The notes under the pieces: model-generated | Database searches by the model: none | Told to the model about the DNA's origin: nothing | Seen by the model: the letters and a program-made list of their open reading frames with translations, nothing else | DNA from: Candidatus Igneacidithiobacillus taupoensis | GTDB taxonomy: Bacteria > Pseudomonadota > Gammaproteobacteria > Acidithiobacillales > Acidithiobacillaceae | Direction of reading: 5' to 3' | Assembly (NCBI GenBank): GCA_021375695.1 | Contig: JAEPKX010000001.1 | Location: 1-64,000, forward strand | Length of the DNA stretch: 64,000 bases | Shown: one piece after another, positions 21,852 through 27,214 of the stretch | How positions within the stretch are numbered: position 1 is the first letter of the stretch | Layout: every line of letters begins with the position of its first letter | Made by a program: the position numbers and the translations under genes

Positions 21852-24341
21852 TTAGAAAATCTTCATCAAGGCGCGCACGAAGCTCTGTTCCTCCCGTTCT
21901 TTCCTTGTCTGGGGCTTGGGCGGCAGATAGCCCGCCAAAAAATAACCGACCTTCCCACCGTGCCTTGCAACTTTACCCATGGGGGGATCGAGCAAGGTCC
22001 CCGTGGTCGGATCATAGGTCGCCTTGACTACATCCGGGGGTCGATAGAATCCCGTATCGGGCTCGTCCCGCAGCGCAGTCGCCATATACCGGATCCAGAT
22101 GGGCAAGGCTTCCCGTGCCCCTGCAGCCCAGGTCCCCATGCTATGGTTATCATCATAACCAACCCAAACCGAAGTCACGATCTGCGGATTGAAGCCATTG
22201 AACCAGGCATTGGTTTCATTATTGGTTGTACCGGTCTTGCCAGCCAGATCATGGCGATGGAGGATCTGTGCTGCCACCCCGGTACCCACTCGAATCACCC
22301 GCTCCATCATGCGCGTGAGCAAATAGGCAACCCCAGGCGGGATCACGGTTTGCTCGGATGGGGGGGAATAAGCCAATGGACAATGGAGCAAGGCCACCCG
22401 CGTGCCATTGGCCGTTAGCACCTTCTTGATCAAATAGGGATGGGGTAGGAAACCACCGTTGGAAAATACCGCATAGGCGCGAGCCATTTGCAGCGGGGTA
22501 AAGTCCCCTGCACCTAGGACCATGGAAGGGGTTGCCGGCACCTGCCGAGCAGGAAAACCAAAGCGTTGCACATAGGCTTTGGCATAGGGAATCCCCACAT
22601 CCATCAGTAGTCGCACACTAGGAACATTATGGGAGTCAGCCAGATCTTCCCAAATCGGGAACGGGGTTTGGGAAAAGGTGCGGCTGTAATTGGTTGGGGC
22701 GTAGATTTGCCCATCGGGCAAATGGATCAGCAACGGCGTATCAGGAATCAACGAAACCGGAGTGAAATAACCCTTGTGGCCGCTAGCAAGGAGTGCTGGT
22801 GCATCAATGGCAGCAGCGTACACAAAGGGCTTGAACCCAGACCCCGGCTGGCGGTAGGCATACAGTGCCCGGTCAAAATGACTCAGTTCATAACTAAATC
22901 CACCGGCCAAGGCCAAAATGGCGCCAGTATGACTATTGAGTGAAACCAAGGCCCCTTGCACATGGGGAATTTGGGCCAGCTGCCAACCAGCGTGGGGCAC
23001 CCGATGCCAGACCCGGGTACCCCAGACCGGATTTCCTGTTCCCGCCGTAGCAGCAGCCACATAGGGACGAACCCAGACCAAGTCCCCCCGAGCCAGGACC
23101 TGATCTACCCGTTGGGGACGGGCGCCATTGGGCCGTAACCGCGCCCAGGCAAGATCGCGAAGGCTCATAGTGATGTTGCGCTTTCCCTCCAGAGATAGCT
23201 CAGCCTGCTGCGGCCCCACTTTTTCTACCACCGCCCAGCGGAGGTTGGCCGGATCATAGTCCGGGAGCATGGGGGGACGCTGGCCTTGCAACGCTGCAGC
23301 CAGCATTTCACCGCGCAGGGTGGCAATGGGTCCTCGCCAGGCCTTGGGATCCATGCTGTCCAAACCCATGGCGTAGTTTTCCAGACCAATGGCCAAATCC
23401 CGGGACGCCGCCCGCTGATCTTGGGGATTGATACTGGTATAGACCCGCAACCCCCGTCGATAGGTAAAGTCGGGTCCAAAGTGCTTTTCCAGCCAGGTGC
23501 GGATCCAGTCAGTGGCATAGGGTGCCACATTGCTTGACGGGGCATGATAGCGGGCTCGGATCGGCTCCGCCATGGCTGCCTGGGCCTGGGCCTGGGTAAT
23601 AAAGCCTAGCTGAGCCATGCGTCGCAATACATAATCCCGGCGTACCTTGGCCGCCTTCTTGGAAACGATGGGGTTGAAGACCGAAGGTGCCGCTGGCAAG
23701 CCCGCAAGGGTGGCCATTTCACCCAATGTCAGTTGCTGCACGGTCTTACCATAATAGGTTTCGGCCGCAGCCTGGACCCCGTAGCTCCCTTCGCCCAGAT
23801 AGATCTTGTTGAGGTAGAGATCCAGAATCTGTGAACGCGGAAGCCTCTGGGCAAGCTTGTAGGCCAACAGGATCTCTGCCACCTTTCTGGTTATGGTCTT
23901 TTTGGGGGTCAAATAAAAATTGCGAGCCACCTGTTCGGGAATGGTACTGGCCCCTTGCACCGGTCCCCAATGGATCAGATCCACCCAGGCAGCGCGAAAA
24001 ATGCCAGGGAAGCTGACAGGATAATAGAGCGGGTTATGACTATAGAAATTGGCATTTTCCGCAGCAATGAAGGCATCCTGCAGGTGTACCGGGATCTGCT
24101 GCAAGGGCAAGGCGTAGCGTAACTGGGGGCCGATCACTTGCAGGAGCTGCCCGTTATCAGCATAGATGCGTAAGGGTTCCGCCGGATGCCAGTGTTCCAA
24201 ATCCGCTACTGCAGGTAGTTGCACCCAAATTCGATAGGTCCAGACCCCCACGGCCAAAAACCCATTGAGCAAGACCAGCAGCAACGCCAGGAGTAGCCAA
24301 AAACGCCGGCTACGCTGCCGAAAAACCGTTGACACACTCAT
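21852..24341 (-). CDS. PBP1A-like bifunctional penicillin-binding protein (GT51 + transpeptidase)
   Basis: YLNKIYLGEGSYGVQAAAETYYGK, transpeptidase PGSGFKPF / DSHNVPS / GKTGTTNNETNAWF; start taken at MSVSTVFRQRSRR. Confidence 0.9.
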   Translation of the reverse strand: MSVSTVFRQRSRRFWLLLALLLVLLNGFLAVGVWTYRIWVQLPAVADLEHWHPAEPLRIYADNGQLLQVIGPQLRYALPLQQIPVHLQDAFIAAENANFYSHNPLYYPVSFPGIFRAAWVDLIHWGPVQGASTIPEQVARNFYLTPKKTITRKVAEILLAYKLAQRLPRSQILDLYLNKIYLGEGSYGVQAAAETYYGKTVQQLTLGEMATLAGLPAAPSVFNPIVSKKAAKVRRDYVLRRMAQLGFITQAQAQAAMAEPIRARYHAPSSNVAPYATDWIRTWLEKHFGPDFTYRRGLRVYTSINPQDQRAASRDLAIGLENYAMGLDSMDPKAWRGPIATLRGEMLAAALQGQRPPMLPDYDPANLRWAVVEKVGPQQAELSLEGKRNITMSLRDLAWARLRPNGARPQRVDQVLARGDLVWVRPYVAAATAGTGNPVWGTRVWHRVPHAGWQLAQIPHVQGALVSLNSHTGAILALAGGFSYELSHFDRALYAYRQPGSGFKPFVYAAAIDAPALLASGHKGYFTPVSLIPDTPLLIHLPDGQIYAPTNYSRTFSQTPFPIWEDLADSHNVPSVRLLMDVGIPYAKAYVQRFGFPARQVPATPSMVLGAGDFTPLQMARAYAVFSNGGFLPHPYLIKKVLTANGTRVALLHCPLAYSPPSEQTVIPPGVAYLLTRMMERVIRVGTGVAAQILHRHDLAGKTGTTNNETNAWFNGFNPQIVTSVWVGYDDNHSMGTWAAGAREALPIWIRYMATALRDEPDTGFYRPPDVVKATYDPTTGTLLDPPMGKVARHGGKVGYFLAGYLPPKPQTRKEREEQSFVRALMKIF

Positions 24342-24366: not shown

Positions 24367-25521
24367 TCAAAGCCACGATCGCAAATGATGCCATAGTCGA
24401 TCCATCCAACTGGCTTTGCCCACGGACTCCTGGGCCAAGACCGTCTCACTGCGCAAGGTCTTCCCCTGCCACTGCAGGTTCAAGGTACCCACCGGCTGCC
24501 CTGCATGGATCGGGGCCGCCAGGTGGGCCATCGGCACAAAATGACTTTGGACCGCTTTGTCCGGGCTCCCTTTGGGAAGCACCACCGAGAGGGCTGCGGG
24601 GGTAATGACGCTGAGGGTTTCGGGACTCCAGTCACTCTGGCGAAGCTTCGCCACCACACCATTGGCAGGATAGACCAGGTGTTCTTGCCACCCATGGAAA
24701 CCATAGTGGAGCATAGCGGCACCATCAGCCCCCGCCACTGCCCGTGAGCCAGCCCCCAATACCACGGCAACCAAGGATCTTCCCTTTTTTGTGGCACTTA
24801 CGGCCAAGTCCCAGTCATGGGCAGACGCCAACCCAACGCCCAACCCCGTGATGCCCCTTTGACCTGCCAGTGGGTTGTAATTGAATTGGGTAATCTTGTT
24901 GTATCGGTAACTGGCTTGTCCGGCTACCTGGGCAACCTGCGGATACTTACGTAGCAGGTCCCGGCCCAAACGGGCTATGTCCAGGGCGGTACTCTTTTCC
25001 TCTGGGGCTGGCATCCCATCGGGATTGACAAAATGGGTATGATGCAGACCCAGTTGTTGAGCCTCCTGATTCATCAGGTCAACAAAACCCGACTCACTAC
25101 CGGCCACGGCCTGGGCAATCGCAATGGCTGCATCATTCCCTCCATCAATTAGCAAGCCATGGGTAAGCTGAGCTACCGTCACCGGCAGCCCCGGTTGGAG
25201 GAACATCCGGGAACCTGGCGCATGCCACGCCTGCACCGAGACTTCCACCCGTTGCGCGGGTGTCAGCAGCTTTTGCGCCTCGGCCTGATACAAAAGATAG
25301 GCGGTCATCAGCTTGACCAAACCCGAAGGATCCAATTCGGTGCTACCGTTTTGGTCCAGAAGGACCTGCCCGGTATGGACATCCAGCAGAACGGCCGCCT
25401 TGACCCCAGCGATTTGCGGAGCTGGCAAGGGGGGAGGAGTAGGCGGGGTGGGCACCGGGACCATCGCCCGGGCAGCCACGGAAAAGTATAGGGCAGAAAT
25501 AACGAGAGCGGCTCGGATCAT
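24367..25521 (-). CDS. DacA/PBP5-like (S11) protein with degenerate catalytic motifs
   Basis: Co-linear with S11 carboxypeptidases (LLDVHTGQVLLDQN, MFLQPGLPVTVAQLTHGLLIDGGNDAAIAIAQAVAGS, THFVNPDGM) but with GLVK, GGN and GVG at the motif positions; signal peptide MIRAALVISALYFSVAARA. Confidence 0.88.
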   Translation of the reverse strand: MIRAALVISALYFSVAARAMVPVPTPPTPPPLPAPQIAGVKAAVLLDVHTGQVLLDQNGSTELDPSGLVKLMTAYLLYQAEAQKLLTPAQRVEVSVQAWHAPGSRMFLQPGLPVTVAQLTHGLLIDGGNDAAIAIAQAVAGSESGFVDLMNQEAQQLGLHHTHFVNPDGMPAPEEKSTALDIARLGRDLLRKYPQVAQVAGQASYRYNKITQFNYNPLAGQRGITGLGVGLASAHDWDLAVSATKKGRSLVAVVLGAGSRAVAGADGAAMLHYGFHGWQEHLVYPANGVVAKLRQSDWSPETLSVITPAALSVVLPKGSPDKAVQSHFVPMAHLAAPIHAGQPVGTLNLQWQGKTLRSETVLAQESVGKASWMDRLWHHLRSWL

Positions 25522-25594: not shown

Positions 25595-27214
25595 TTAGTC
25601 GCGCCCTTGCCGATATAGTGCAATCAGGGCCTGGGTAGAGGGATCGTGGGCATGCTGGGTGGTACCCATTATGTCCGTTTCAACGCGTTGCGCCAGGATC
25701 TTTCCCAACTCCACCCCCCACTGATCAAAGGAGTCAATGTTCCAGATCACTCCCTGGGTGAACACGCTATGTTCGTAAAGGGCAACCAAAGCACCCAGGC
25801 TATAGGGAGTCAATGCGTCCACGAGTAAGAGATTATGTGGACGATTGCCCGGCGTCACCCGATGGGGAATCAAGTCTTCTGGCACCTGGGCAGCACGCAA
25901 TTCTTCTGCCGAACGACCAAAGGCCAGGGCTTCACTCTGGGCAATATAATTGGCCATGAGGAGATCATGTTGTTGCTGCGAGGGACTGAGCGATTTGATA
26001 AAACCCAACAGATCACATGGGATCAAGCGCGTTCCCTGATGCAATAGTTGAAAGAAAGAATGCTGGGCATCGGTACCTGGCTCTCCCCAAATGACGGGGG
26101 CGCTGTTCACCCCCAGGGGTCTGCCTTCCAGATCCACCCTTTTGCCATTGCTTTCCATGACCAACTGTTGCAGATAAGCGGGAAATCTTGCCAAATCATG
26201 GGCATAGGGCAAGATAGCCTGGCTTTGCGCACCCCAGAAATTGTTATACCACACCGCCAAAAGACCCAGGAGCACTGGCAAATTACCCTCGAGGGGGGCC
26301 GTCAGAAAATGCTGATCCATGGCGTGAAAGCCTGCGAGCATATTACCAAAGGCTTGGGGACCGATGGCCAACATGGTGGCCAAACCAATGGCTGAATCCA
26401 TGGAGTAGCGCCCACCGACCCAATCCCAGAATGCAAAACTGTGCTCGGGATCCATGCCAAAGGCGCGCACTGCCTCCAGATTGGTAGAAACGGCCACAAA
26501 GTGCCGGGCCACTGCCTCCTCTCCCAGGGCTGCTACCAACCATGCCCGTGCCATTTTGGCATTGGTCATGGTTTCCAGGGTGGTAAAGGTTTTGGACGAA
26601 ATGATAAAGAGGGTCGCAGCAGGGTCCAACTCCGCCAGGACCTGAGCCAAAGCCGCCCCATCGACGTTGGCAACGAAATACTCGCGAATCCCCGGATGGC
26701 GGCAGGACCGCAGGGCGTGATAGGCCATCTCGGGTCCCAGATAGGAACCACCAATCCCGATGTTAACAATGTGACGGAGGACTTTTCCCGTTACTCCCTG
26801 CCATTCACCCGAATGCACGCGCTCCACGAAAGAGGCCATTTTGGTCAGCACCTCATGGACCCCAGGCACCACGTTCACCCCATCCACCCACATGGAGCTC
26901 CCCGCCGGTGCCCGCAGGGCCATATGCATGGCCGCCCGCTGCTCGGTGACATTGACCTTTTCGCCGGCAAAAAGGGCTTCTCGACGCTCAGGAAGCTGCC
27001 GCTCCCGTGCCAACGCAAGCAGCAACGCCAAGGTTTCCTGCCGCAACCAGTTCTTGGAAAAGTCCAGGCGAATGCCGCAAGCCTGCACTACCATGTTATG
27101 TGCCCGCTGCGGGTCTTCGGCAAAGAGCTCTTGAAGGGTTCCTTGCCAATGATGCTGATGCTCTTGCAAACGCGCCCAGGCGGGACTTTGCTGCAGCAAT
27201 TCGATCTTCGACAT
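25595..27214 (-). CDS. pgi: glucose-6-phosphate isomerase
   Basis: [41 protein letters not shown]. Confidence 0.97.

Follow-up and report, generated by a model that had tools for sequence, protein, structure and literature searches.

psDac, a PBP5-like protein of the Acidithiobacillaceae with all three catalytic motifs replaced: a conserved pseudo-DD-carboxypeptidase with a probable regulatory role

Introduction

In the E. coli laboratory mutant PBP5(S44G), penicillin binding and carboxypeptidase activity are abolished and the protein is dispersed (PMC2909392). The FRET state of the dimer is altered, and cells bulge through the presence of the dead protein and not through the missing activity, which has been suggested to titrate proteins of the divisome or to interfere with elongation (PMC5596342). 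The mutant protein makes cell shape worse at both pH 5 and pH 7.5 (PMC4916385). The greater disturbance of E. coli by PBP5(S44G) than by the absence of PBP5 is a laboratory finding so far unexplained. According to one report, E. coli PBP6a seems to be inactive and may shield pentapeptides (PMC4916385). Among dead LytM proteins, DipM uses its degenerate groove to dock and regulate partner enzymes and autolysins (PMC10336132). No description of a pseudo-DacA, an inactive S11 protein or a pseudo-PBP was found in the openly licensed literature searched.

The window considered here is a stretch of 64,000 nucleotides from a 1.73-Mb Acidithiobacillaceae assembly whose nearest named relatives are Acidithiobacillus sp. 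YTS05 and Candidatus Igneacidithiobacillus taiwanensis. It encodes a pseudo-DD-carboxypeptidase of PBP5/DacC architecture, termed psDac (Table 1). A first-pass annotation had described this protein as co-linear with S11 carboxypeptidases over its length and devoid of all three catalytic motifs, and had proposed a selected non-catalytic role, for instance as a sensor of peptidoglycan, as a scaffold or in regulating PBP1A.

Protein architecture and predicted fold

The psDac reading frame runs from the ATG at 25521 to the stop at 24367 and is uninterrupted by stops. Co-linearity with S11 enzymes holds over the length of the protein: the Peptidase_S11 profile PF00768 is matched at 226 of 239 positions (E=1.6e-53; 182 bits for a cut-off of 27.6), and a PBP5_C domain is also present. 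The best solved relative in sequence searches is P. aeruginosa PBP5 (4k91, E=1.5e-56); other close solved sequences are the V. cholerae S11 protein 5tr7 and then E. coli PBP6. The solved relatives also include PDB 4drt, a ‘de novo designed serine hydrolase’ with a PBP5-like sequence, apparently a PBP5-based design scaffold.

The AlphaFold2 model, computed from 26 aligned sequences, has a mean pLDDT of 87.3 and a pTM of 0.83. Foldseek matches it to PBP6 and PBP5 structures over its length, with TM scores against 4k91_B of 0.82 by query and 0.91 by target length. By its profile match psDac is a true S11 homologue, and the model predicts that its PBP5-type fold is intact, as first supposed; neither profile nor Foldseek assigns it to the M23 LytM fold. 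The export signal likewise appears to be kept, as a putative signal peptide placed by eye. At the mature N-terminus, the proline-rich spacer is longer than in the intact paralogs, and its prolines P24, P27, P30, P31, P33 and P35 are invariant in 12 orthologs. At the other end, the amphipathic helix is the element that serves as membrane anchor in PBP5; in psDac, the last 14-mer has a hydrophobic moment within the top 4%, and the helix appears to be retained across the orthologs.

Table 1. Coordinates of psDac, its features, its neighbours and related loci
Feature	Position	Strand	Basis or remark
psDac, pseudo-DD-carboxypeptidase ORF	24367..25521	(-)	384 aa; PBP5/DacC architecture
Putative Sec signal peptide, residues 1-20, MIRAALVISALYFSVAARAM	25462..25521	(-)	Hydrophobic stretch; cleavage site by eye
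Proline-rich spacer PVPTPPTPPPLPAPQ, residues 21-36	25414..25461	(-)	Alignment of orthologs
Former A-SxxK, S66-GLVK, residues 66-70	25312..25326	(-)	GLVK = residues 67-70 = 25323-25312
Former SxN, GGN, residues 127-129	25135..25143	(-)	Codon check, alignment
Former KTGxT, GVGLA, residues 228-232	24826..24840	(-)	GVG = residues 228-230 = 24840-24832
Ala263, equivalent to PBP5 Arg248	24733..24735	(-)	Alignment; Ala in all orthologs
PBP5_C domain (domain II), residues 279-369	24415..24687	(-)	PF07943 E=1.6e-10, 41 bits; AF2
C-terminal amphipathic helix, predicted, residues 372-383	24370..24408	(-)	AF2; hydrophobic moment
pgi (glucose-6-phosphate isomerase)	25595..27214	(-)	73 bp upstream of psDac
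PBP1A-a, class A PBP	21852..24341	(-)	25 bp past the psDac stop
Second PBP1A paralog, 70% identical to PBP1A-a	G000:C22:2435-4729
Rhodanobacteraceae psDac locus	L054 8001-9044		All three replacements kept
Rhodanobacteraceae psDac locus	L134 8267-9472		All three replacements kept

Replacement of the catalytic motifs

The codons agree with the motifs GLVK, GGN and GVG of the first reading. Glycine occupies the nucleophile position (Ser67 to Gly), the serine position of SxN (Ser127 to Gly) and the lysine position of KTG (Lys228 to Gly, together with T229V); further changes within the motifs are A66S, T69V and T232A. An SxxK serine and an SxN serine are absent from every ortholog, and Gly228/Val229 is present in all of them. 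The loss of the three motifs needs one refinement: every ortholog still has the lysine of SxxK (K70), the asparagine of SxN (N129) and the final glycine of KTG (G230), and the GSRMF segment is mostly kept. Arg248 of PBP5 binds the substrate-side carboxylate (PMC4979060), and its position is held by alanine. Trp237, Trp278, Trp351, Phe328, Glu81 and Arg260 are newly fixed in the dead clade.

These assignments are not an alignment artefact, since the SxxK and SxN region aligns without gaps, PASLTK facing PSGLVK and DSGND facing DGGND. For the same reason, a serine hidden by an alignment shift is ruled out; the closest one is Ser66, which lies one residue ahead of the old nucleophile and is both new and invariant in the dead clade. 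Canonical SxxK catalysis is, to judge from the alignment, very probably absent from psDac. A re-engineered enzyme, in which Lys70 and Asn129 would assist Ser66 in acting on some other substrate, is conceivable insofar as the A66S switch is as absolute as S67G and neither Lys70 nor Asn129 is ever lost. Such an enzyme is nevertheless highly improbable: no indel brings Ser66 into register, KTG and the SxN serine are also gone, and, because the predicted helix begins at residue 66, Ser66 is more simply read as a helix cap that may replace Ser67.

Distribution and origin

Orthologs with the same substitutions are found throughout the family. Among 57 related genomes searched, psDac orthologs (54-75% identity) occur in 26 of the 28 other Acidithiobacillaceae genomes, the two without being only 61% and 71% complete; the gene is thus carried by 27 Acidithiobacillaceae genomes in total, that is, by all those at least 81% complete. 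The orthologs uniformly read PSGLVK, (D/E)GGND and GLGVG. When 84,980 species genomes were scanned with patterns taken from the most conserved psDac stretches, 21 psDac-type loci were recovered, 20 of them in Acidithiobacillaceae or in metagenome bins grouping with them and one on a Rhodanobacter-labelled contig (L054); in the remaining 59 loci, which come mostly from Betaproteobacteria, the motifs are intact throughout. No further psDac turned up in 369 genomes sampled across the class, where the six other strong matches are intact.

In a Rhodanobacteraceae sample, psDac is present in 2 of 198 genomes, where it adjoins a patatin-like gene and the rpsF-dnaB-alr region. On the Rhodanobacter-type contig (L054), whose G+C content is 63-72%, psDac lies beside ribosomal genes, dnaB and alr, and the genome also retains a canonical S11 protein. 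The second genome (G481, on a contig of 2.1 Mb) carries this locus with all three replacements, 91% identical at the DNA level. These copies are best explained by a single lateral transfer from one lineage of acidic habitats to another, the habitat being that suggested by the record name.

Maximum-likelihood analysis of 103 sequences groups the dead proteins in a single clade, which has 100/100 support and a stem of 0.94 changes per site. The wider group around this clade also holds two intact DacC-like paralog lineages of Acidithiobacillaceae. The tree topology shows that psDac arose once, at or before the base of the family. The source genome encodes four S11 proteins, and the three besides psDac keep SLTK/SGN/KTG or SLSK/SGN/KSG. 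The source cell thus apparently has working DD-carboxypeptidases, and the dead copy would add to trimming and not replace it. The membrane-vesicle proteome of F. caldus lists DacC and MrcA (PMC10853474); the DacC listed there may be the dead or an intact copy.

Conservation and selection

Comparison of 27 dead with 72 intact sequences identifies exactly seven columns fixed for different residues (one residue shared by at least 93% of the dead sequences, and a different one by at least 80% of the intact sequences): A66S, S67G, T69V, S127G, K228G, T229V and T232A. All lie in SxxK, SxN or KTGxT. Random placement of seven out of seven in the 20 motif columns of 330 has a probability of about 1e-9, a rough figure because alignment columns are not independent. 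Positional entropy in the dead clade is 0.26 bits around the motifs, 0.80 in the rest of domain I and 1.22 in domain II, and the longest invariant run of psDac, PSGLVKLMT (residues 65-73), is the altered SxxK itself. By these measures, the altered groove is the most conserved part of psDac. Mere loss of function would let the groove drift; here it is conserved.

Pairwise dN/dS values for psDac have a median of 0.127 (50 pairs, dS 0.05-1.2), with medians of 0.089 for pgi and 0.077 for PBP1A; close psDac pairs range from 0.05 to 0.25. They were obtained with our own script by the simple method of Nei and Gojobori, and values at dS near 1 are approximate. A decaying gene or a sequencing artefact could be imagined from the lost catalytic residues and from a run of N in one metagenome copy (L012/L037), yet the probability of either is negligible: the same replacements stand in intact frames in 29 genomes (27 Acidithiobacillaceae and 2 Rhodanobacteraceae), no frameshift or decay was seen in these relatives, and the dN/dS of close pairs is low. 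The selected non-catalytic role first proposed is borne out by the shared replacements, the single clade and the dN/dS median; these sequence comparisons show psDac to be a selected pseudoenzyme under purifying selection and not a decaying gene.

The conserved groove would also fit ligand binding. Thus psDac might bind peptidoglycan stems without hydrolysis, shielding or reporting on pentapeptides as a decoy or sensor. The groove-lining stretches are its most conserved part, Lys70 and Asn129 are retained, and PBP6a, which perhaps protects pentapeptides, would be a precedent (PMC4916385). The contacts to D-Ala-D-Ala are however jointly lost (both serines, the Lys and Thr of KTG, the next Thr and the equivalent of Arg248), and S44G alone already costs PBP5 its substrate-dependent localisation (PMC2909392). 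Stem binding is therefore rather unlikely, and the sensor role first envisaged is weakened: groove conservation and the retained Lys70 and Asn129 still speak for it, while the invariant A263 in place of Arg248 speaks against it.

Genomic neighbourhood

The most conserved neighbour of psDac is pgi, which adjoins it in nearly every Acidithiobacillaceae locus with enough sequence. The order pgi-psDac-PBP1A is kept in most species (about 14 loci), and co-transcription of the three genes is likely. Most Acidithiobacillaceae species have two PBP1A paralogs, 66-70% identical. A dead or divergent PBP1A neighbour is ruled out by the transpeptidase motifs SGFK, SHN and KTG and by the transglycosylase Glu, in a comparison that leaves out the out-of-frame L040 row. 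In both paralogs, GT51 motif 1 is unusual (AAENANFYSHNPLYYPVSFPG in PBP1A-a): many copies have E then N, some have D, and NPLYYPVS follows the His of the motif in place of the usual HxGxD.

A dedicated scaffold or regulator of PBP1A-a, as suggested by the first-pass annotation, would agree with the immediate proximity of the two genes on the same strand and with the conserved order. The distribution of the genes speaks against it. PBP1A-a is not next to psDac in A. ferriphilus, A. ferrivorans DSM 22755, A. ferruginosus and two metagenome bins. Seven genomes (G005, G011, G019, G020, G022, G025 and G026) have only the second PBP1A (66-69% identical) and keep psDac, a loss of the linked PBP1A that affects at least two lineages, namely G005 and the A. 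ferrooxidans/ferrivorans group. Both Rhodanobacteraceae copies lie away from any PBP1A. PBP1A-a is dispensable for psDac retention, which counts against a partner model; an obligate pairing is ruled out, and an exclusive partnership is unlikely. A dedicated PBP1A-a regulator is accordingly unlikely, although the second PBP1A paralog could still partner psDac. In G005, the PBP1A-a slot is taken by a cation/proton antiporter-like gene in opposite orientation (L045 9137-10936).

Proposed role

psDac probably has a non-cutting, regulatory job in cell-wall building. As to its nature, we tentatively favour, at somewhat below even confidence and by analogy with dead enzymes elsewhere, a membrane-tethered, groove-dependent inactive partner that would tune DD-carboxypeptidase or peptidoglycan-synthase activity. 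By family resemblance, psDac would be exported, tethered through its C-terminal helix to the periplasmic side of the inner membrane, and incapable of acylation or penicillin labelling at the SxxK site. The dead groove and the two-domain body would dock on active DD-carboxypeptidases and/or class A PBPs, either as a hetero-oligomer or as a competitor for the same sites, and pentapeptide trimming would thereby be restrained or positioned. psDac would in this way be a natural, fixed counterpart of the PBP5(S44G) effect. Since E. coli PBP5(S44G) loses septal localisation, the dead protein may need another recruiter.

A bolder extension, possible and held with less assurance, is that a single recruitment in the ancestor of this acidophile family turned the dead PBP fold into an allosteric subunit or recruiter dedicated to wall enzymes, with the empty site as docking pocket, and that it was later passed laterally to another acidophile lineage. 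It would then be the serine-PBP counterpart of the LytM regulators.

Comparison with known systems

Among the intact relatives in the family, the DacC-type paralogs L001 and L002 are about 41-45% identical to psDac, share its architecture and fall in the same wider clade. Unlike psDac, the paralogs of the same genome (L001, L002 and L003) have intact SLTK or SLSK, SGN, and KTG or KSG, and the paralog loci examined are without the pgi-PBP1A neighbourhood. Intact and dead paralogs form a clean comparative set, with only seven fully fixed differing positions. Automatic annotation likely mislabels psDac proteins as active carboxypeptidases.

The E. coli enzymes PBP5, PBP6 and PBP6b (DacA, DacC and DacD; MEROPS S11) have the same fold and two domains, as well as the export signal and amphipathic helix that psDac also appears to have. 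In psDac, by comparison, the three motifs and the carboxylate-binding Arg are replaced, with three exchanges of a functional residue for Gly, and the N-terminus is extended and proline-rich. The degenerate LytM regulators EnvC, NlpD, ActS and DipM are, like psDac, dead peptidoglycan hydrolases, but their M23 metallopeptidase fold is unrelated and the analogy is functional only.

The laboratory mutants PBP5(S44G), PBP6a S66G and PBP6b S63G carry a nucleophile Ser-to-Gly exchange identical to that of psDac; PBP5(S44G) is reported to be inactive, to alter the dimer and to affect cell shape dominantly (PMC2909392, PMC5596342, PMC4916385). psDac differs from PBP5(S44G) in being natural and conserved through a bacterial family: nature has fixed the same exchange, erased the SxN and KTG motifs as well, and kept the protein family-wide beside working enzymes, which offers a natural system for testing what DD-carboxypeptidases do besides catalysis.
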